Assembly: GCA_963971285.1 (NCBI GenBank)
Contig: OZ020249.1
Span: forward strand, 10,094,256 to 10,158,255
Direction of reading: 5' to 3'
DNA: 64,000 bases
Source: Astropecten irregularis
Taxonomy: Eukaryota; Echinodermata; Asteroidea; Paxillosida; Astropectinidae
A model generated the notes under the pieces. It ran no database searches. It was not told where the DNA came from and worked only from the letters and a program-made list of their open reading frames with translations. Made by a program: the position numbers and the translations under genes. This document shows positions 5,174-64,000 of the stretch, in pieces. Within the stretch, counting starts at the first letter, position 1. Every line of letters starts with the position of its first letter.

Positions 5174-6199
5174 AAGGAGGAGGATTTCGCTAAGCAGGGC
5201 GACTTCAGTTTCAAAAATTCAGATCTATGATCTACACTGAAAATAAAAAGACACGTGTAATTTTGTTTTTCCTGAGTTTGCCCCAGAAATGAGCAGGCAG
5301 ATTCCAAAGATCGTGTTCGAAATATAGGATTGGACAGCGCGCTGTTTATATGATACACATACAGTGTAGAACGTCATAACATGATATATAAATCATTACA
5401 GATTTCGGTATACAGGGCGACTTCAGTTTCAAAAATTCAGATCTATATGATCTACACTGAAAATAAAAAGTAACGTGTAATTTTGTTTTTCCTGAGTTTG
5501 CCCCAGAAATGAGCAGGGAGATTCCAAAGATCGTGTTCGAAATATAGGATTGGACAGCGCGCTGTCATATATGATACACATACAGTGTAGAACGTCATAA
5601 CATGATATATATAAATCAATACAGATTTCGCTATGCAGGGCGACTTCAGGTTTAAAAATTCAGATCTATGATCTAGACTGAACATAAAAAGACACACGTG
5701 TGTAATTTTGTTTTTCCTGAGTTTGCCCCAGAAATGAGCAAACAGATTTCAAAGATCGTATTCAATATATAGAATTAGACTGCCTGCTGCCATATATAAT
5801 ACACATACAATGTAAACCGGTATTGCATGATATGTAAATCATTACAGATTTCGCTACGCAGGGCGACTTCAGTTTCAAAAATTCAGATCTATGATCTACA
5901 CTGAAAATAAAAAGTAACGTGTAATTTTGTTTTTCCTGAGTTTGCCCCAGAAATGAGCAGGGAGATTCCAAAGATCGTGTTCGAAATATAGGATTGGACA
6001 GCGCGCTGTCATATATGATACACATACAGTGTAGAACGTCATAACATGATATATAAATCAATACAGATTTCGCTATGCAGGGCGACTTCAGGTTCAAAAA
6101 TTCAGTTCTATGATCTAGACTGAAAATAATAAGACACGTGTAATTTTGTTTTTCCTGAGTTTGCCCCAGAAATGAGCAGGCAGATTTCAAAGATCGTAT

Positions 6200-9100
6200 T
6201 CAATATATAGAATTAGACTGCCTGCTGCTATATATAATGCACATACAGTGTAGAACGTCATAACATGATATATAAATCATTGCAGATTTCGCTATGCAGG
6301 GCGACTTCAGGTTCAAAAATTCAGATCTATGATCTAGACTGAAAATAAAAAGACACGTGTAATTTTGTTTTTCCTGAGTTTGCCCAAGAAATGAGCAGCC
6401 AGATGTCAAAGATCGTGCTCAAAATATAGAATTTGAAAAATCCTCATGCGCTTTAACAATGCATGGTCCCATGCACAAACCCATGCACGAAGGTGTAAAC
6501 TAGACCTAATCTTACTGACTATGACAAACATAATCCAAGACCATTTCATGTCAAAACTAATTTTTGTCCACGCAGGCTCTACGGGCTTGCCTATAAGCGT
6601 GGCATGAGCCAGTCGTCTGGCATAGTCAGTGACATATGGTCAGGTTCCCAGCCTTCGTAATATGGTTTGTATATGGGCTCATAGCTAAACCGCGTTAGGA
6701 TTTTTTTAGGAGGAGGATTTCGCTAAGCAGGGCGACTTCAGTTTCAAAAATTCAGATCTATGATCTACACTGAAAATAAAAAGACACGTGTAATTTTGTT
6801 TTTCCTGAGTTAGCCCCAGAAATGAGCAGGCAGATTTTAAAGATCGTATTCAATATATAGAATTAGACTGCCTGCTGCCATATATAATGCACATACAGTG
6901 TAGAACGTCATAACATGATATATAAATCATAGCAGATTTCGCTATGCAGGGCGACTTCAGGTTCAAAAATTCAGATCTATGATCTAGACTGAAAATAAAA
7001 AGACACGTGTAATTTTGTTTTTCCTGAGTTTGCCCAAGAAATGAGCAGCCAGATGTCAAAGATCGTGCTCAAAATATAGAATTTGAAAAATCCTCATGCG
7101 CTTTAACAATGCATGGTCCCATGCACAAACCCATGCACGAAGGTGTAAACTAGACCTAATCTTACTGACTATGACAAACATAATCCAAGACCATTTCATG
7201 TCAAAACTAATTTTTGTCCACGCAGGCTCTACGGGCTTGCTTATAAGCGTGGCATGAGCCAGTCGTCTGGCATAGTCAGTGACATATGGTCAGGTTCCCA
7301 GCCTTCGTAATATGGTTTGTATATGGGCTCATAGCTAAACCGCGTTAGGATTTTTTTAGGAGGAGGATTTCGCTAAGCAGGGCGACTTCAGTTTCAAAAA
7401 TTCAGATCTATGATCTACACTGAAAATAAAAAGACACGTGTAATTTTGTTTTTCCTGAGTTTGCCCCAGAAATGAGCAGGCAGATTTCAAAGATCGTATT
7501 CAATATATAGAATTAGACTGCCTGCTGCCATATATAATGCACATACAGTGTAGAACGTCATAACATGATATATAAATCATTGCAGATTTCGCTATGCAGG
7601 GCGACTTCAGGTTCAAAAATTCAGATCTATGATCTAGACTGAAAATAAAAAGACACGTGTAATTTTGTTTTTCCTGAGTTTGCCCAAGAAATGAGCAGCC
7701 AGATGTCAAAGATCGTGCTCAAAATATAGAATTTGAAAAATCCTCATGCGCTTTAACAATGCATGGTCCCATGCACAAACCCATGCACGAAGGTGTAAAC
7801 TAGACCTAATCTTACTGACTATGACAAACATAATCCAAGACCATTTCATGTCAAAACTAATTTTTGTCCACGCAGGCTCTACGGGCTTGCCTATAAGCGT
7901 GGCATGAGCCAGTCGTCTGGCATAGTCAGTGACATATGGTCAGGTTCCCAGCCTTCGTAATATGGTTTGTATATGGGCTCATAGCTAAACCGCGTTAGGG
8001 TTTTTTTAGGAGGAGGATTTCGCTAAGCAGGCCAGGGCGACTTCAGTTTCAAAAATTCAGATCTATGATCTACACTGAAAATAAAAAGACACGTGTAATT
8101 TTGTTTTTCCTGAGTTTGCCCCAGAAATGAGCAGGCAGATTTCAAAGATCGTATTCAATATATAGAATTAGACTGCCTGCTGCCATATATAATGCACATA
8201 CAGTGTAGAACGTCATAACATGATATATAAATCATTGCAGATTTCGCTATGCAGGGCGACTTCAGGTTCAAAAATTCAGATCTATGATCTAGACTGAAAA
8301 TAAAAAGACACGTGTAATTTTGTTTTTCCTGAGTTTGCCCAAGAAATGAGCAGCCAGATGTCAAAGATCGTGCTCAAAATATAGAATTTGAAAAATCCTC
8401 ATGCGCTTTAACAATGCATGGACCCATGCACAAACCCATGCACGAAGGTGTAAACTAGACCTAATCTTACTGACTATGACAAACATAATCCAAGACCATT
8501 TCATGTCAAAACTAATTTTTGTCCACGCAGGCTCTACGGGCTTGCTTATAAGCGTGGCATGAGCCAGTCGTCTGGCATAGTCAGTGACATATGGTCAGGT
8601 TCCCAGCCTTCGTAATATGGTTTGTATATTGGCTCATAGCTAAACCGCGTTAGGATTTTTTTAGGAGGAGGATTTCGCTAAGCAGGGCGACTTCAGTTTC
8701 AAAAATTCAGATCTATGATCTACACTGAAAATAAAAAGACACGTGTAATTTTGTTTTTCCTGAGTTTGCCCCAGAAATGAGCAGGCAGATTTCAAAGATC
8801 GTATTCAATATATAGAATTAGACTGCCTGCTGCCATATATAATGCACATACAGTGTAGAACGTCATAACATGATATATAAATCATTGCAGATTTCGCTAT
8901 GCAGGGCGACTTCAGGTTCAAAAATTCAGATCTATGATCTAGACTGAAAATAAAAAGACACGTGTAATTTTGTTTTTCCTGAGTTTGCCCAAGAAATGAG
9001 CAGCCAGATGTCAAAGATCGTGCTCAAAATATAGAATTTGAAAAATCCTCATGCGCTTTAACAATGCATGGTCCCATGCACAAACCCATGCACGAAGGTG

Positions 9101-49185: not shown

Positions 49186-50700
49186 CATTACAGATTGCGC
49201 TACGTAGCGCGACTTCAGTTTCAAAAATTCAGATCTATGATCTAAACTAAAAAAATTAAAAACACACGTGTAATTTTGTTTTTCCTGAGTTTGCCCCAGA
49301 AATGAGCAGGCAGATTCCAAAGATCGTGTTCGAAATATAGGATTGGACAGCGCGCTGTCATATATGATACACATACAGTGTACAACGTCATAACATGATA
49401 TATAAATCATTACAGATTTCGCTAAGCAGGGCGACTTCAGATTCAAAAATCTATGATATAGACTTAAAATAAAAAGAAACGTGTAATTTTGTTTTTAATG
49501 AGTTTTCCCAATAAATGAGCAGGCAGATTTCAAAGATCGTGTTCAAAATATATGATACATATACCGTGAAGAATGCTTTTGCATGATATGGAAACCATTA
49601 CAGATTTTGCTATGCAGGGCGACTTCAGGTTCAAAAATTCAGATCTATGATCTAGACTGAAAATAAAAAGACACGTGTAATTTGTTTTTTCCTCAGTTTG
49701 TCCCAAAAATTAGCAGGCAGATTTCAGCGATCGTGTTAAAAATATAGAATTTGACCGCGCGCTGCCAATACACATACAGTGTAGAACGGTTTTGCATGAT
49801 ATAATTAATCATTACAGATTTCGCTATGCAGGGCGACTTCAGGTTCAGAAATTCAGATCTATGATCTACACTGAAAAGAAAAAGACACGGGTAATTTTGT
49901 TTTTCCTGAGTTTGCCCCGGAAATTAGCAGGCAGATTCCAAAGATCGTGTTCAAAAATATAGGATTTGACCACGCGCTGCCATTATACACAAACAGTGTA
50001 AAACGTAATAACACGATATATAAATCAATACAGATTTCGCTACGCAGGGCGACTTCAGGTTCAAAAATTCAGATCTCCGATCTAGACTGAAAATAAAAAG
50101 ACACGTGTAATTTGTTTTTTCCTCAGTTTGTCCCAGAAATGAGCAGGCAGATTTCAAAGATCGTGTTAAAAATGTAGAATTTGACCGCGCGCTGCCAATT
50201 AATACATGTACAGTGTAGAACGGTTTTGCATGATATATAAATCTTTACGGATTTCGCTATGCAGGGCGACTTCAGGTTCAGAAATTCAGATTTATGACCT
50301 ACACTGAAAATAAAAGACTCGTGTATTTTGAATTTTCCTCAGGTTGCCCCCTAGAAACTAGCAGGCAGATTACAAACATCGTGTTCAAAATATAGGATTT
50401 GACAACGCGTGTAAGAGAACGATGCATCACGATATATAAATTATCTCATATTTCACTACGTGTTGGAATTTTAGGTTTAAATACACATGATGTCTGATCT
50501 AGACTGAAAATAAAAAGACTCGTGTAATTGGAATTTTGCTCATTTTGCCCTAGAAATCTGAAGGTAGAATGAAAAGATCGTGATGAGATTGTACGACTTG
50601 ACAGCGCGCTACAATGATGCCGCATGATCTATAAATCATCACATACTACACTAAGTGGGCCCATTTCAGGTTTACAAACACATTTTTCAACGTCACATTT
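49186..50700 (+). repeat. Divergent right edge of the satellite
   Basis: Monomer starts, marked by the decaying CAGATTTCGCTA motif, fall near 49,190, 49,409, 49,588, 49,812, 50,031, 50,246, 50,443 and 50,637. Spacings run 219, 179, 224, 219, 215, 197 and 194 bp. The motif drifts to CATATTTCACTACG and then CATACTACACTAAG, and homology ends near 50,700. Divergent monomers at a boundary are usual for satellites homogenised mainly in their interior. Confidence 0.88.
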
Positions 50701-55823: not shown

Positions 55824-58800
55824 ATGCCTCACAAGCCGCCTGTGATGGATCTTTCTCACTTTATACCGGAGAAAATTAAGGAATGCGATCGCAAATTACG
55901 GGTAAGCAACAATACAGGCTCTGGGAAATCTTCCACCTACAATGTGAAAAAATTATGACGCTTACTGATTTTGTAGCTGATGATGTTTTTGTATTCATTG
56001 AGTTTCTGAAGACTGTTATGTTAGCTTTTGCATTTTCATTGATGTCAGTTTAGTGAAGCCTGCCTTTTCAAAAATCATTTTGACTTATAGCAAAAAGATG
56101 AGAGGATCGTTGCCTTGGAAACGGAAAATGCCATGCTGTATCTGAGACTTGCGCAGGTGAGAATTGGAGAGAATAGAAACTTTCGGGGCTAATGAGAGAA
56201 AACTTATGTGAGAAATCTTCAAGATGGAATTGTGATTCTGCAACCTCATTGAGAAGCCAGGCCAGGACTGGGCGAATTTGTTAAGGCTCTTGGGCTTCTA
56301 CAGTCCCCGGCCTTGAACTGCCAACTTGAAGCCCCAGCTTAGTCCTGGCTCATTGTTGACACCAGCCTGACTGAAAGATTGGGCCAGTCATTTAAAAGCC
56401 TGGCCAGGCCTGGGCTTTGCCTGGAGTCTTGGGCTTCTACAATCCCCGGCCTTAAACTACCAACTTGAAGCCCTTGCTTTGTTGTTTGTCCTGGCTCATT
56501 GTTGACACCAGCCTGACTGAAAGATTGGGCCAGTCAGCAGTCACTAACAAGTCTGGCCAGGCCCGGGCTTTGCCTTGGTCTTGGGCTTCTACAATCACCA
56601 GCCTTGAGCTATCAATTTGAAGCCCCTGTTTTGTCTTGGCTCATTGTAATGATTGTTGACACTAGCCTGACTGAAAGATTGGGCCAGTCACTAACAAGTC
56701 TGGCCAGGCCCGGGCTTTGCCTGGGTCTTGGGCTTTTACAATCCCCAGCCTTGAGCTATCAACTTGAAGCCCCTGCTTTGTCACGGTTCATTGTTGACAC
56801 CAGCCTGACTGACAGATTGGGCTTGTCACTAACAAGTCTGGCCAAGCCCGGGCTTTGCCTGGGGTTTTGGGCTTCTACAATCCCCAACCTTCAACTATCA
56901 ACTTCAAGCCCCTGCTTGAACAAACCTGGGTCATTGTTGGGACTATACATGTATAACCTGATTGACAGATTGAGTCCATATTGATCATGGACATCTAGCA
57001 TGTCTAGAAGCCAGGCTTTATTGACTATCAGCTGCTCGCTTGTAGTGAAGTTCAGGGCCGACAAGAGAAATTAGTATTTTAAACCTTAATCACCTTGTCA
57101 TGAAATTGCATTACATTATACTGTATTCATTCCTCAACAAATAAGTTGGCACTTAGAATGCTAGGCTGACAGGAAAGCATTCAATTGGATGGCTTTGGGG
57201 CATATATTTTGGTTTTTCTTCCCATGTACGTATCCTCGCAGCTCCAAGGTGAGGTAGCTAGCAGCCATAAAGCCGTGGACCACATGAAGAGGCTGATGGA
57301 TACGGAAGACGAGTCACAACTACGCGTCTGGCAGACGTGCAATCAGATGTACAACAAAGTGCAGGTATGTAAAGCCCAAAACACCTGGGGCCAATTTCAT
57401 AAAGCTGCTTAGCACAAAAATTTGCTAAGCATATGACATTTCTGTCTCAATAAAAACAGGATTAACAACCAAATTTCCATGTGCTGTGTATCACTTGTGA
57501 TTGTTCTTTGGCTGTTGTTCGCTGACCATTAATATCAAATCAAATTTTCAATGGTGGTTTGTTTAATATTGGGCAAGCCATTTTTGTGCTAAGCAGCTTT
57601 TTGAAACTGGCGCCTGTTTCTCTCTCTCTCTGTTATCCTTGCTAATGCCACCAGCCATCAGTTTGACATCTTATCGGTGTTAGTAGGGATGAAAACCTGT
57701 TCCTTGTGTCAACCAGAGTGGGTTTCGAACCCAGAATACCACTGTGGAAGGTAAGGAAAGACTCATTGAAAACCACAGTAAAAATTACAAGCTGTGTTTA
57801 CTTCATAGTTCGGTATTGACCATGCTTGAATGCTCACGATCTGATATGATGCCATCTCTCGTTTTCCTAGGAGACCAAACGCGACCTCCAGCAGCTCCGC
57901 GACCTCGTGAGGTCAGTGCCCAGGCAGATGACCTTCGACCTGGAGCTCCTGCAGAACAAAGCGGCCAGTCTTAGCCAGTCGCTCATCACTGATAACCTGG
58001 ACATGCAAGGTACCGTGCACTAGACCGTCAATTTTCAAAGTTCTGGACAATTTCTGGACAATTTTGAGTTTAAGATGATCGCAGGTTGCCACCTCTAGGT
58101 TGGAGACTTTGGGGGAGACTTTGGGGATGACTTGTATCGTATCCACTTTAATATAACATCGGTGGACTGGTGTCACACAAGCTTGCCAGAAATATTTGAT
58201 GGCAAGCAAAACTGACTGAATATTTGCAATGAATGTTTGCAAGAAGTCGAGCATATAATTATTTCAACTTGTGTGAAATGTCTGCTTTGTATGTTACGAT
58301 GTCCAATTCACTACGCTTCACAATTTGCATGAAATATGAACCGGGCTTAACACTGTTTGGTAAAGTATTTTGAATCCATTTCCTCCCCCCCCCCCCTAGA
58401 GCTGAGAGAGCGCCTGAATGAGCTACAGGAAGAGGTCAAAGCAGCCAACGAGCGCTATGCCAAGGAGAAAAAACGGAGAAAAGACCTACACAATACCCTA
58501 GTTGTGAGTGTGGGTCTTGATTTTTCCAGCCAAGTTTGGGTGTCATCAGTTTTAATACTTTACTGATGTCTAGAGAATGAACTTTTATGTATCAATCTAT
58601 AACATTTTGATCAGATTTTCATCAAATATTAATTTGCCCAGTACAACCAATTTAGAACTTATTCCATCTAATCTAAAATCTTTTAAATGTGAACATAAGA
58701 AAAATTAAGTGGAACGGGATTCGAACCTGCAACCCCTGGGAATACCATAATGGTGCTCTACCTGTTTTTATCCATTCCTATGCTGTTGGTGTCATAAATT

Positions 58801-61800
58801 GTACATTATCTTTGTTCGTACGCTTTGCTTCTTGTTCAGTTTACAGTGGCTCAAAATGAATCCAGTCAATTTCCCTTGTGGTTATTTCATGATTATAATT
58901 TTAAACTGCATTCCTCATTATCAAGACATTTTTCCTGATCCTCTCATCCATTTATGTGCATCTTTACTTGCATGTTCTTGTCCTCTTGTCAATTAGCCTT
59001 TGAGAAAGATCCTGCTAGGATCGAGACGCGTCAGGCTCTCCTAACTCTAAGAAGTTTTTAAATGAAAAAATCAATACTGAATACCTATGGAACTGACCTA
59101 TGGTACTGATGGTACTGATCAAATAATGTAACTTTTGAATTGATTCTTTTCACCCTAAATCTTATGAAAATGGCTGTTGTAATGTACATGTAGCTCATGG
59201 GTGTTAAAATTTGTTTTGCGTCTTCTTTTATGCAAAGGAACTCCGTGGCAACATCCGTGTGCAGTGCAGAATGCGACCGGTTATGTCGAGGGACTTGAGG
59301 CTAGGAGCGACGGCCGAACAGGTGGTCCATGTTATCGACGACGTAAGCTAACGAACCATGTTCCTGTTAAAACAATAGATAAAAAGAAAATTGACTGATT
59401 AATTAACAAACAAGTTCAATCGTATTTAGGGAGAGGAACTTTGATATTGGTAGCATTTGGGCCTTGCTGAAAATCAAGACCGGGCCAGGGCTTTGCTTGG
59501 GGTCTTGGGCTTCTAGAATCCCAATAATGATGGTCTATCAGCTTCACTCCCTCGCTTTGTCCTAGATCATTGTTGGCAATTTTTGATTGAAAAGAGTAGT
59601 CTACAAATAATCATGGACAGTATCCAGAAGCCAGTCTTTATTACTTTCAAGCAGCTCTGTTGTAGTGAAGGTCAGGGCTGATGGGAGAATTTCAGGCCTG
59701 CAGGCCCGGACCTGGCCATGGCCTGGCTTTTCAGTATCTGGGCCCAACTAATATTAGAGTTTTTCTCCCTTAGGAACAGCTTAGGAAATGAATCTGAACT
59801 GTGACTTGAGACAGAGACTATCAGTCCATTTAGCCTCACATCAGCTTATAAATTAGGGGGTTTACGAAACAGAGACTCGGGCTCCAGCTCTGTCATCCAT
59901 ATGCAAACCAGAGAATCTACTTCAAAACCGCAGCCATTTTAGAATGGATTCACGAAATGGAGCCGGAGCCTGAGCCTGAGCCTCCGTATCGTAAACCCCC
60001 TTACTTGGGAAGAAACTGTTATTATCTAATTTTTGTTCCTTATTGTTACTTGATTAATGTCAAATTAATATTTTGAAATTGTTCACCAACTTTTACTCAT
60101 ACAAAAGTGCTGTAAATGTTCATTTTCGCTGTGAAGGGCTTCGGGTATCTGTACTCCTTATTCAATGAATAAAAGCAATCCTTGATTAACACAATTTTTA
60201 AGTAATTATGAAATTCAAATATTTATTATAATCTCAGCTCATTACATTTTTATTATTGAATTAATTTTTCACATTCAGGAGAATATCTCTGTCAAGCATA
60301 ACAAGCCAGGAACTGGACCGGGCACTAAAGTCTTTGAGTTTGAACAGTGAGTTTAACATGTTCATTGGCTGATTTTGTTATTAGATCTGCCATAATTTCA
60401 TAGGTTTTTGTCAAAGAAATGCAGATTCATGGGCAAAAATATCAAGAAAGATACAGTCATCAGTCAAAAGTCATCTGTGAAATTCCCAGTCCCATACGGT
60501 GCCTACTTTTTGTGAGAAAACAGTGTTATGAAATTACCTTTAATCTTAGGGCCTGTTTGTTTTTAATGCACTGGATCCCAGATCTTCAGATCTACATCCC
60601 ATGCAGAGTACGCTAAAATGGGATCCGGATCAGTAGGATCTGTGATCTTAGGCGTTAAACAAACAGACCCTTGTAAATTCGGCCCCAGGGATATAAAACT
60701 GACTGCACATTCTGTTCAGACTTCAGAAATGTGAAAGAGGAAATATCAAACGGGCCCTCCCTCTCAAAAGATTAAATGAATTAGAAGAACTCTCTTAAAC
60801 AGCTGCCAAAGTGGCCTGCCAACTTCCAATAAGCTCTTGATCTACATCTACTCACAATGATGATGACTTTTTGTTTGTTTCATTAGCGTGTATTCCATGC
60901 AGGAGTGCCAGTCGGATGTCTTTGAGGAAGTCCAACCTTTGCTGACCTCACTTCTCGACGGGTAAGACGGGAATCCTAAGACACAAAAAAGAAAATTCCA
61001 TGTCAGTTCATTTTTAGAAATAATGGCTCTCCTGCAAGGATTGAAATGCCAAGCACTCTTAACTTGCCAGCATTGTATAGTTTATTAATTTCTGTTTGCT
61101 TAACGGTATTTAAGAAAGATTTGAGGCTTTGCATGGTGACAATTGGTATGTGGATCAGTTTGCGGAAACACCATGTAAGAATCGTACTTCTCACACTTAC
61201 GAGAAATGCGAACAGATAGAAGTGCGAAAGTACGAACGATTCTTAAATGGTGTTTCCGCAAACCGAACCACTTAATAACGGTATTTGTTTTCTCCAACTT
61301 TTCTGGCAAGGAATACATGTGAATCCTAATAGTGTACCACCATGAGTTTGCAACGGGTTGGCTAATCACAATGCGCGGAATCTGTCAACCCTTTCTAGAC
61401 GCTCATTGGGTTTACAAATTGTGATTGACCAACTTTGCAAAGTCTTGGTGGCGCACTGTGTGGAATCACTTGAAGCCCTAATTATAAGAGGTAGGGCCTA
61501 ATCTTGGCTTTGGCTCCGGCTTCGGCTCTGGCTTCATCGCTGTCATTTGCTGAAAATATAGGTTGTGGTTTTTCATTGAAGCTGAAGCTCTGTTTTCTTG
61601 TTCAAAGCAGAGAACCAACTTCTGCAGCCGATTTCACCAAACTTCAAATGTTGCATACGCTACATTTTGCTGCGTAACTAATATGCAACATTTTCCTGCC
61701 TTGGTTGCACAAGTAATGGCCGTTTCACGAAAGTTACGCAACATTTGTATGTTGTGAAAGTTACGCAAAACTTCGTGAAATCGGCTGCAGAACCGCAGCC

Positions 61801-64000
61801 AAAAGTCTCTAATTTGATGTATACCGTTTTTTTTTTAAATGGATGCATGAAATGGAGCCAAAGCCGGAGCCGGAGCCAGAGCCGAGGTTTGCAAAACTAC
61901 TAGCTACTACTGGCTTTTTTTTTGCTTTAGGTATAATGTGTGCATCATGGCTTATGGACAGACTGGCAGTGGGAAAACCTTCACGATGCTGGGGGACAAT
62001 TACACAAATCTCCACCGAGAAATGGAGGAGGAATTGGAGATTCACCCCTCGGATGGCGTGGTGCCCAGAGCCGCAGTGGAAATGTTCAGGTATAGATGTA
62101 TAGTTTGTGCGCTGCCGTCACTAGAGGGCACCAGAGTGGCACCACTGCGAAAAAACTGACAACATTTACAAGCAGCTTAATTGCAGCGTGGCACAATAGC
62201 ACTCTGCACTTGTGCTATAAATAGCAGACTGAATGCTGTGACGTCACACCGGATCTCAGACAAACATTGCAACGTGCGATGGGTGTGCTTGTGTGCGCTT
62301 GCATCCATGTCTGACATCGGGGTATTTTGTACATGCGCGCGCTGGCCAAATCACTCGTGTGACGTCATTAGTGCGGAGCGCTATTTTGAAAAAGTTACAG
62401 ATTTTTGTGTATAGGTATTCTCCCAGTTATTCTTCCCAAAAACCTTGTTGCTATTATTACACTAGGGACAAAATGCGTAATACTGTGAGTGGTGTACAAA
62501 CTCAAATCCTGATTTGTGATGCGAGGGTATACACCGATCCGACAGCGTGACATACCATCTGCCATTACTGCAGTGTCCCTGCCCGCCTTTTGTCCGGCAA
62601 CAAAAGAATTTACGTCCGCCGAACTCTATACTGCAGGATGTATGTCCCATGATTAGGGCCAAACATTGCTATCTACCGGGAATGCATCAAATAAAGAGAT
62701 ATAAGACATCTCAAGACAAGCAATGAACATTAGAAATTTCTATTTATAGAATACTTGCTGAATAGCGCCCTCTATCAGGAATGCATCAAACAGATGACAA
62801 ATCAACACTGCTCAGTATTTAAAATGCAACATAACACAAACTGAATGGAAAATTTGCAGGTTGATTGAGGAGAAACCGGCCAACAGTCACAGCATCGAGG
62901 TGTCGGTCGTTGAGATCTACAACAATGACATCCGCGACCTCTTGGACCCAGAGGCAGGGGTCGTCAAGCTTAACCTTCGGACCGCCGATGACGGCTCAAT
63001 GGAAATACCATCACTCACGCAGAGGTAAGTGTACAGACGGAACCACATCCAGTTTGTTAAAAATGTCATCAAATGTTCATATGGGGCACGCTTGCAAAAC
63101 TTTTGGTTCGACCTGTTTCACTGCAGACAAGTTGACAGTGCGGCAGAGATTGTGAAGCTGGTCCAGTACGGTATGATTCATCGACATGAGGATGCTACGC
63201 TTGTCCACGCCCACTCTAGCCGGTCCCACCTCATCGTCACCCTCACTGTGTCAACCTACCCTCGCGGGGCACCGACCACAACGCCCGATGTGTCAAGGAG
63301 TGCTTCACCGGTGTCTGAACTTCACTCACCAGGTTAAGCCTTCAGACTTACATTTTACCAGGGCACCGGTTAGAATATGCACAGTATGTCTAGATATTAA
63401 AAGAAAAAGAAATTCCAAGTGTTACAGTGATAAACTAGTTCTTGAGGCCGTGAAAATGATATCACCATGGAGATTATATAACGCGTTTTAATAGCAACTC
63501 ATAGTGTTAATATTACCTGTTTGGTTATAGATTGAGCCAGACCAACTTCAAATGCAAAACATTATTTTGCTGCAATACTACTAAATAATGGTGCTGGCAA
63601 AATCTTTGTGTTAGTTCCATAGAGCTACTTCATACTTATAATTGTGACTATATTGGAATATAGGGAAAAACACAATGGAAGACATTTTTAGTTTGGTACG
63701 TAGCGTTAGCAATAGTTTAGTGAGTGCGGCCTGTTCTGTCCAACCAAAGTCTGTATAAGCACATTAGCAAGAGGGTCCATTGCGTTAGCAATAGTTTAGT
63801 GAGTGCGGCCTGTTCTGTCCAACCAAAGTCTGTATAAGCACATTAGCAAGAGGGTCCATTTTCTTGTTGCCCCTGTAGTTAAATTTGACTTTTCTCTTTG
63901 TTATCCCAGGGAGTTTCTTGAACAAAGGCCTGAGGCGTAACCAGTCCATACCCACCATCGCTCTGCAAGCCCTGTCCGAAGCAGGCGGCTCCCAGTCGCC
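55824..64000 (+). CDS. KIF25-like: KIF25-like kinesin-14 motor protein, 3' end beyond window
   Basis: Twelve coding exons splice in frame with GT/AG introns: 55824-55901, 56091-56156, 57242-57364, 57871-58009, 58400-58503, 59238-59342, 60279-60346, 60887-60961, 61931-62089, 62860-63024, 63127-63332 and 63910 to the window end, giving about 459 residues. Residues 27-170 form a coiled-coil stalk. The neck LHNTLVELRGNIRV (165-178) directly before the motor is the kinesin-14 signature. The P-loop GQTGSGKT is at 262-269, EIYNNDIRDLL at 324-334 and switch I HSSRSH at 390-395. LLTSLLDGYNVCIMAYGQTG and TLVHAHSSRSHLI closely resemble human KIF25 as I recall it, more than KIFC1, KIFC2 or KIFC3. Kinesin-14s are mostly minus-end-directed microtubule motors; KIF25 has been linked to centrosome positioning. 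The start at 55,824 has A at -3, but no in-frame stop precedes it within the exon. Switch II lies beyond the window. Confidence 0.9.
56255..57075. repeat. Intronic repeat element with five-unit internal minisatellite
   Basis: Inside intron 2, five copies of a roughly 143-155-bp unit follow one another, each with TTGGGCTTCTA or TTGGGCTTTTA, CAACTTGAAGCCC and TTGTTGACACCAGCCTGACT; their starts fall near 56,290, 56,427, 56,579, 56,727 and 56,865. The run begins with GAGAAGCCAGGCCAGG and is followed by a tail with AGAAGCCAGGCTTTATTGACT and TTGTAGTGAAGTTCAGGGC. The element at 59,468-59,751 has the same head and tail with one unit. An open frame at 56,604-56,984 only reads through these units. Confidence 0.82.
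57384..57615. mobile_element. MITE with ~39-bp imperfect terminal inverted repeats
   Basis: The left end CCTGGGGCCAATTTCATAAA pairs with the right end, whose reverse complement reads CAGGCGCCAGTTTCAAAAA; both then share AGCTGCTTAGCACAAAAAT. The element is about 232 bp and noncoding. It begins only 20 bp after the donor of exon 3 (57,364). Confidence 0.82.
57640..57750 (-). mobile_element. tRNA-derived SINE fragment
   Basis: GGTTTCGAACC at 57,721-57,731 is, on the minus strand, GGTTCGAAACC, a good Pol III B box (GGTTCRANNCC). GTGGTATTCTG precedes it as the anticodon-arm-like part and GTTGACACAAGGAACAGG follows. A convincing A box and full cloverleaf were not found, so this is a partial SINE rather than a tRNA gene. 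Confidence 0.6.
58385..58399 (+). other. 12-C run forming the acceptor tract of exon 5
   Basis: Twelve consecutive C at 58,385-58,396 are followed by TAG and the exon starting at 58,400. A pure C run serving as the polypyrimidine tract is unusual and prone to length change. Confidence 0.85.
58685..58770 (-). mobile_element. tRNA-derived SINE fragment
   Basis: On the minus strand the order is GGTAGAGCACC (58,752-58,762, resembling the end of a Pol III A-box region), then GGGGTTGCAGGTTCGAATCC, in which GGTTCGAATCC (58,717-58,727) matches the B box exactly. The arrangement is that of a tRNA 5' half with a degenerate anticodon arm. The acceptor stem does not close, so a SINE head is more likely than a functional tRNA. 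Confidence 0.65.
59468..59751. mobile_element. Relative of the intron-2 minisatellite element, single internal unit
   Basis: It begins TGAAAATCAAGACCGGGCC and ends with the reverse complement of TGAAAAGCCAGGCCATGG, so it has imperfect terminal inverted repeats. Between them lies one GGTCTTGGGCTTCTA unit followed by the tail seen at 57,000-57,060 (AGAAGCCAGTCTTTATTACT, TTGTAGTGAAGGTCAGGGC). It is noncoding. Confidence 0.7.
59855..60001. mobile_element. MITE, AGGGGGTTTACGA ends
   Basis: The left end AGGGGGTTTACGAAACAGAG pairs with the right end, whose reverse complement is AGGGGGTTTACGATACGGAG, and the match continues through GGCTC-rich repeats. Length is 147 bp. Its central part (AACCGCAGCCA, GAAATGGAGCCGGAGCC) is shared with the element at 61,502-61,888, so both belong to one family. 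Confidence 0.82.
60548..60671. mobile_element. MITE, AGGGCCTGTTTGTTT ends
   Basis: AGGGCCTGTTTGTTT at the left matches the reverse complement of the right end (AGGGTCTGTTTGTTT) at 14 of 15 bases. The 124-bp interior is rich in GATC words (CAGATCTTCAGATC, GGGATCCGGATC) that give a secondary foldback. It lies in intron 7. Confidence 0.8.
61150..61271. mobile_element. Small foldback MITE in intron 8
   Basis: GTTTGCGGAAACACCAT at 61,158 onward pairs with ATGGTGTTTCCGCAAAC ending at 61,263, a perfect 17-bp repeat. Pairing continues inward through AAGAATCGTACT and AGTACGAACGATTCTT and outward through GTGGATCA/GAACCAC. The whole is about 122 bp and nearly all stem. Confidence 0.85.
61502..61888. 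mobile_element. MITE of the GGAGCC family, carrying a nested MITE
   Basis: The left end TCTTGGCTTTGGCTCCGGC pairs with the GGAGCCAAAGCCGGAGCCGG block at the right (about 61,855-61,888). The interior shares AACCGCAGCCA and ATGAAATGGAGCC with the element at 59,855-60,001. It is interrupted at 61,622-61,790 by another element; without that insert it would be about 218 bp. Its right end lies about 42 bp before the exon that carries the P-loop. Confidence 0.75.
61622..61790. mobile_element. Nested MITE, CTGCAGCCGATTTCA ends
   Basis: The 169-bp element starts CTGCAGCCGATTTCA and ends with the exact reverse complement, TGAAATCGGCTGCAG. Internal direct and inverted copies of TTGCATAC and AAAGTTACGCAA add more foldback. 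It splits the host MITE between ACTT and AACCGCAGCC, so it is the younger of the two. Confidence 0.8.
62195..62385. mobile_element. Second copy of the AATAGCGCTCCGCACT MITE family
   Basis: The left end AATAGCACTCTGCACT pairs with AGTGCGGAGCGCTATT at the right with two mismatches. It shares GTGACGTCAC, GGATCTCAGACAAACATTGC and the GCACGTGCAC-like middle with the element at 51,604-51,778. The 191-bp copy lies in intron 9 and is noncoding. Confidence 0.8.
63703..63860 (+). repeat. Perfect 79-bp tandem duplication in the last visible intron
   Basis: The unit starting GCGTTAGCAATAGTTTAG at 63,703 and ending GAGGGTCCATT at 63,781 is repeated at 63,782-63,860 with no difference I could find. The second copy ends 49 bp before the exon at 63,910. 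Confidence 0.92.
63910..64000 (+). other. Start of the next kinesin exon, an insertion before switch II
   Basis: After the acceptor TTATCCCAG the frame continues as GSFLNKGLRRNQSIPTIALQ and onward to the window edge. Together with the end of the preceding exon (YPRGAPTTTPDVSRSASPV and following) it makes a Ser/Pro/Thr-rich insertion of at least 50 residues between switch I and the expected DLAGSE motif. Human KIF25 has an insertion at the same place. Confidence 0.75.

Follow-up and report, generated by a model that had tools for sequence, protein, structure and literature searches.

A Worn Foldback Repeat within Monomers of a 219-bp Satellite of Astropecten irregularis and Its Probable Joining to a Dispersed Monomer

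Introduction

Some monomers of a 219-bp satellite in the sea star Astropecten irregularis (assembly GCA_963971285.1) contain a 272-bp spacer that folds back on itself, which raises the question of what this spacer is and how it came to lie inside a satellite monomer. The stretch of DNA analyzed here, called the window, comprises 64,000 nucleotides of contig OZ020249.1 (C12:10094256–10158255), and the genome searched amounts to 475.7 Mb in 168 contigs. A preliminary description of the locus had proposed that the spacer is a MITE captured by a satellite monomer. Transposon-derived DNA inside satellites is a phenomenon already known, and the birth of a satellite is usually guessed from the sequence of its monomer alone; here the hairpin, the monomer, and similar joins of the two are found both scattered and in arrays within one genome, which makes the order of events testable. 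The reading that we favor, and consider probable, is that a decayed MITE-like foldback (H) became joined to a dispersed monomer (M) and that the resulting chimera has since been copied passively with the arrays.

Results

The satellite array occupies positions 1–50403 of the window (forward strand, as are all features located below) and is built of ~219-bp monomers, 30 of them spacer-bearing. Ordinary monomers are mostly 212–223 bp long, and the one at 6078–6296 was taken as the reference M. The 30 spacer copies, with probe starts from 1954 to 43467, lie 650–2407 bp apart, and 25 of the monomers that bear them measure 431 bp; among the matches listed, copies on this contig run from 9.874 Mb on. 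In the copy analyzed, the left part of the spacer-bearing monomer (6297–6433) ends in ...TATAGAATT at the left junction, against the TGAAAAATCC at ~6434 with which similarity to dispersed copies begins. The spacer itself, an imperfect full-length hairpin of 272 bp and a worn copy of the dispersed family H, spans 6436–6707, and 8 bases (AGGAGGAG, 6708–6715) separate it from the resumed monomer (GATTTCGCTAAGCA, 6716–6729). Worked out from coordinates, ~282 new bases (6434–6715), of which 272–274 are the hairpin, stand in the place of ~70 monomer bases that are missing between the junctions; the spacer is thus a replacement and not a simple added insert.

The foldback noticed in the preliminary description was confirmed by alignment of the arms and by folding against shuffled sequences. 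The 88-bp arms as named there (left, 6436–6523; right, 6620–6707, complementing the left) align with 66 identities in 93 columns, and the best local arm score was 51, compared with a mean of 14.7 (S.D. 2.3, maximum 29) for 1000 dinucleotide shuffles. The exact 10-bp match reported near the inner edge of the arms is present (ACTGACTATG/CATAGTCAGT), shifted by one base. Complementarity of the tips, given as 16 of 20, reaches 17 of 20 when they are aligned at AAAAATCC with an offset of 2 and falls to 10 of 20 if no offset is applied. Folding of the spacer as RNA yielded −97.5 kcal/mol (z −7.4), as DNA −51.4 kcal/mol (z −6.8), and as reverse-strand RNA a z of −8.0, with none of 200 shuffles as good in any of the three cases. 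The longest stop-free frame touching the spacer, in the window copy, has 77 codons and extends beyond its left end.

Of 1874 candidates, a plain similarity search scored 40, every one of them on C12 at 9.88–10.14 Mb. Copies outside the satellite were sought with patterns expected not to match the satellite flanks or satellite variants. A left-tip pattern in which the C12 satellite flank was barred gave 1026 matches, other arrays included (control, 0), and most of the 100 matches listed were in other tandem arrays. An internal 53-base core, used as a pattern, was matched 66 times across 21 contigs (control, 0), with 13 of the matches in one array (C9:28.41–28.42 Mb); patterns of this kind, which allow three mismatches, overlook old copies. 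The first four dispersed copies examined (L017–L020) are 79–84% identical to the window spacer. Relatives outside the satellite, the check that the preliminary description had proposed, were therefore found, and neither an absence of such relatives nor arms pairing no better than shuffled sequence, which it had named as counting against its proposal, was observed. With 66 core matches, H has the many short dispersed copies of a MITE; its non-coding character was judged from the frames of the window spacer.

To characterize the family, 30 dispersed copies from 28 loci, chosen as best matches and hence a non-random sample, were aligned with the window copy, leaving out second looks at the same place and matches shorter than 150 bp. 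The majority-rule row of the 30 folds into 105 pairs spanning 268 nt, with an energy of −159 kcal/mol as compared with a mean of −65 kcal/mol for 100 mononucleotide shuffles of the row, and both this row and the window copy consist for the most part of inverted arms. The dispersed copies fold at a mean of −122 kcal/mol (range −147 to −85) and diverge from the row by 7–21%, the window spacer by 12.7%. Pairing in the ancestral structure was retained in 85.9% of cells, as against 86.2% after shuffling and 32–40% in slid structures. Both sides had changed in 9 of the 105 pairs (shuffled mean, 15.3), and the covariation score of 0.084 was below the shuffled mean (0.090) and above the scores of slid structures (0.035–0.045). 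The near-perfect fold of the majority-rule row, together with the lack of excess double changes, points to an ancestor that decayed without excess compensation, and we conclude that H, a family scattered through the genome, was once a near-perfect hairpin of ~270–285 bp with ends near TACACT(CT)GAAAAA.

The window spacer folds more weakly than 27 of the 30 dispersed copies, which speaks against preservation of the hairpin structure by the array. Given the lack of excess compensatory change and the weak folds of the satellite copies, selection on the hairpin was rejected. A structured RNA, tRNA, or snRNA-like gene was rejected likewise: a AATTTTTG motif followed by a stem had suggested an Sm-site RNA, yet Rfam returned seven matches in 5900–8100, none at gathering score, ARAGORN predicted no tRNA in the window, and double changes are not in excess.

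The dispersed copies carry terminal inverted repeats at their ends, TACACTG(A)n...(T)nCAGAGTG(T/C)A, which are damaged in many copies, and at both tips of the satellite copy the outermost bases are gone. Four solo copies (L017–L020), which have neither M nor the larger repeat X described below directly at their tips, run from TACACTG to ~CAGAGTGTA and measure 278–299 bp from tip to tip. Three of them (L018, L019, and L020) end in TACACTG...GAGTGTA with TA on both sides, in L020 on the right only after a changed stretch near the right end; the fourth has TA/TG, and X-embedded copies with kept tips often have TA/CA. A TA target duplication of H is likely; the TA beside the solo tips could also belong to the tip itself. 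When empty sites of the four solo copies were sought among the examined loci and the window, no match crossed any junction. Other repeats match the solo left flank to 18 bp (L018), 33 bp (L019), and 102 bp (L017) short of the junction, and the left flank of L020 matched only its own locus in the same set.

Sequence termed XL (…GTGGTCTGCACCCTTG) on the left or XR (CACAAACGTATTGAGTC…) on the right was present within 300 bp in 24 of the 30 dispersed copies, a count in which many loci contributed only ~115 bp of flank, and H accordingly lies mostly within a larger repeat, X, or forms a piece of it. When the pattern was designed to exclude X flanks, 40 matches were obtained, and 34 of these fall in a single array; solo copies that retain good tips are thus few. 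The clean TA empty site expected of X lacking H was sought with two patterns, neither of which gave a match, a search that is weak at three mismatches for repeats of ~80% identity.

Ten arrays bear H, five with the 219-bp satellite (on C12, C9, C10, C15, and C19) and five of other sequence. Among the matches listed, the satellite copies lie at 14.43–14.55 Mb on C9, 7.95 Mb on C10, and 10.50–10.52 Mb on C19; on C15 the satellite forms a small array at 5.00 Mb. Matches to a pattern for H of the satellite lineage numbered 466, in a listing that leaves out 27 copies inside the window. The other arrays, again among the matches listed, are C1:33.39–33.52 Mb (period ~1148), C1:19.35–19.45 Mb (1211), C8:5.87–5.89 Mb (~1171), C8:17.92–17.97 Mb (~922), and C9:28.41–28.42 Mb (~1380). 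All of these but C1 19.4 Mb are built of X-like units, and that fifth array contains ~53 bp of XR; since they share X-like sequence or XR, the ten arrays do not represent ten independent origins. Within the last of them (G000:C9:28407315–28423920), two H variants alternate in ~1.38-kb units, a two-unit higher-order pattern.

We considered whether H might be no more than the internal hairpin of X, moved and tandemized with it, the satellite having taken a piece of X. The frequency of X flanks, the four arrays of X-like units (C1 33.4 Mb, C8 5.9 and 17.9 Mb, and C9 28.4 Mb), the ~104 bp beside H on C19, which match XL in two of the five units examined, and the failure of the two three-mismatch patterns to find the predicted X site without H all agree with this idea. 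It is harder to reconcile with L017–L020, which lack X at their tips and differ from one another there, and with the TA on both sides of three of them. On balance we regard it as possible but doubtful; it overlaps with the joining of H to M that we favor, which makes no commitment as to what moved H.

The monomer proved to be a dispersed repeat as well. M-like DNA of 75–87% identity was found beside or near H in 7 of the 36 sequences, some of them overlapping, that were sampled for H (L065, L068, L073, L078, L083, L085, and L090). A dispersed-type M pattern, lying by count five mismatches from the array monomers shown, gave 34 matches (control, 0), two of which lie at the edge of the window array and in the small C15 array. 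One of the 66 H core matches is no more than 2.5 kb away from ten of the 34, and no more than 500 bp away from 7; with jitter of up to 0.5 Mb, 2000 runs placed on average 0.07, and never more than 2, within 2.5 kb. On the same patterns, a partner within 2.5 kb is lacking for 24 of the 34 M and 58 of the 66 H, so the composite of M and H is frequent and not fixed. In a tree of 57 monomer rows, whose bootstrap had not settled, 39 of the 40 array monomers group together (97/86), and none of the 17 dispersed rows falls inside that clade. The one array monomer left over, the last (window 50.47–50.59 kb), is a dispersed-type monomer at the array edge (50470–50590) and groups with dispersed loci L094/L095.

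Single dispersed loci also resemble the satellite in their order. At L068/L096, M is followed by H(+) at about the position of the C12 left junction, and this is the dispersed H row nearest to C12 by path (0.18), without a supported fork. The C19-like order of M, inverted H, and XL is present in L093 and L101. At another locus, L097, a 300-bp inverted repeat pair (72%; 311–591 and 2418–2699) surrounds M, XL, H, and further M; the repeat T that makes up these ends is common near other copies and also matches window positions 60392–60461. A single large element with such ends, enclosing M and H, was rejected, because T is frequent at varying distances and probably unrelated.

In a tree of 46 H rows, with 13 of 43 inner branches starred and C10 left out, the seven satellite rows (C12, C9, C19, and C15) form one clade with support of 100/99, separate from every dispersed row and from the other arrays. 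The C10 copy shares 91% identity with that of the window and, by coordinates, has both C12 junction positions in common with it. Judged by these sequence relationships, the sampled satellite copies are one lineage multiplied by arrays, which supports the earlier proposal that the spacer is now amplified by the array and not by transposition.

The junctions differ from contig to contig. They read M1–140, H1–272, and M from ~206 on C12 and C10; M1–138, H1–228, and M129–217 on C9, where one arm of the H copies is cut short at its end; M1–115, inverted H with ~104 bp, and M90–217 on C19; and M1–100, H36–271, and a piece of XR on C15, with C10 and C15 judged from coordinates only. Read base by base on C12, C9, and C19, the junctions showed neither a target duplication nor intact tips with a TA at either side. 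Since the C19 H falls among the other satellite copies, its likeness to L093 and L101 is not simple descent; to reconcile its order with this grouping takes an inversion, exchange between arrays, or a second capture.

These junctions bear on the capture that the preliminary description had inferred, of which the foldback, MITE-like form with outside relatives stands. The plain version, in which a MITE transposed into a monomer of an existing satellite with a TA duplication and its tips and 70 bp of monomer were later deleted, we consider unlikely. The TACACTG...GAGTGTA ends of L018, L019, and L020 are what it would lead one to expect; C9 retains nearly the whole monomer around a truncated H, as an early insertion state might, and the left junction position is common to C9, C10, and C12. 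Set against this are the lack of intact tips flanked by TA at the C12, C9, and C19 junctions, the missing monomer bases, the X flanks of most dispersed H, and the dispersed single loci in which M-like DNA and H already adjoin.

Discussion

The joining of a decayed foldback to a dispersed monomer, which we favor, could have proceeded as follows. H would once have been moved by a transposase. H and M, both dispersed and often neighbors, became joined, probably by breakage and repair in transposon- and repeat-rich DNA, and this composite of transposon-derived DNA was then probably tandemized. The chimeric monomer would have been copied with the array by unequal exchange, conversion, or circle re-insertion, and by the tree appears to have reached arrays on at least four contigs (C12, C9, C19, and C15); its presence on C10 is suggested by identity and junctions. 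Along the way the junctions would have been reshuffled between contigs. What the satellite contains is in any case a monomer joined to a dispersed repeat and amplified in tandem, that is, a composite satellite derived from transposable elements.

The recurrence of H in different tandem units (the 219-bp satellite and units of ~922, 1148, 1171–1380, and 1211 bp, several of which lie close to the middle of a contig) raises the idea that a long hairpin seeds tandem arrays by provoking breaks or re-replication, with perhaps five separate tandemizations of different units. We hold this to be quite unlikely as matters stand; the H arrays offer natural material for testing whether tandem amplification is promoted by long hairpins. 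From the coordinates we noticed after the fact that five of the ten arrays (on C12, C9, C19, C1, and C8) lie within ~6% of the contig midpoint, at relative positions of 0.44, 0.50, 0.52, 0.50, and 0.47, the remaining five being at ~0.15, 0.23, 0.28, 0.86, and 0.99. Such placement would be in keeping with (peri)centromeric satellites, provided that the contigs represent whole metacentric chromosomes.

Dyad symmetries have been linked to centromeres, and the strong fold as RNA and DNA, the recurrence every 650–2407 bp, and the mid-contig placement of half of the arrays, noted after the fact, would fit a hairpin kept for a function in the array (e.g. as a dyad-symmetric unit of centromeric chromatin or an RNA precursor), but satellite copies do not surpass dispersed ones in folding (the window spacer is stronger than only 3 of 30), both-side pair changes are fewer than in shuffles, and the C9 copies lack the end of one arm, so that we find this very improbable.

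Several known systems resemble the combination of H and M in part. Tetris of Drosophila virilis (PMC4079207) is a foldback with no known transposase that supplies satellite arrays through TIR-220, a repeat of ~220 bp. It is like H in feeding satellite arrays, in the repeat length of ~220 bp, and in its many rearranged copies. It differs in that TIR-220 lies inside the arms and forms the satellite itself, whereas H is a spacer in some monomers of other sequence, and in that Tetris shows target duplications of 8–10 bp, whereas solo copies of H have TA at their ends. In Xenopus, miDNA4 is a Tc1/mariner MITE carrying a satellite monomer, and it and Xstir, as described in two reports (PMC12628747 and PMC9659126), combine a MITE with satellite sequence as H and M do. 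In those systems the MITE gives rise to the tandem repeat from its interior or carries it along, whereas H sits inside the satellite monomer and its family occurs in several different tandem units.

In the "TE graveyards" model, composite monomers are proposed to derive from tandemized, degraded composite DNA (PMC12628747), and like the chimera of M and H they join pieces of different transposon-like repeats. That model, as presented there, is a hypothesis drawn from monomers resembling several transposable elements, whereas here similar joins are dispersed in the genome that bears the arrays. For mollusc satellites, PMC5139131 describes monomers in which a part has given way to unrelated sequence of about the same length, which recalls the excision and replacement of part of M. 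The mollusc replacements, as presented there, concern regions that flank arrays belonging to Helitrons, whereas the hairpin replacement has been amplified within the array.

Some further observations concern the window and the assembly at large. Outside the array, the window contains frames that match parts of the kinesin motor domain (PF00225) at 61851–62159 and 63029–63337, a perfect two-copy tandem duplication of 79 bp at 63703–63860, and a 139-bp tandem repeat of 4.4 copies at 56288–56918. Elsewhere in the assembly, a COX1 frame without internal stops under the bacterial code (G000:C131:32162–33484) may be from a symbiont or contaminant. C168 (16,335 bp) carries a COX1 with 10 TGA codons and is presumably mitochondrial; on the mitochondrial contig, ATA, AAA, and AGA read as they do under an invertebrate code, and a partial COX1 copy with TGA codons lies on C25.
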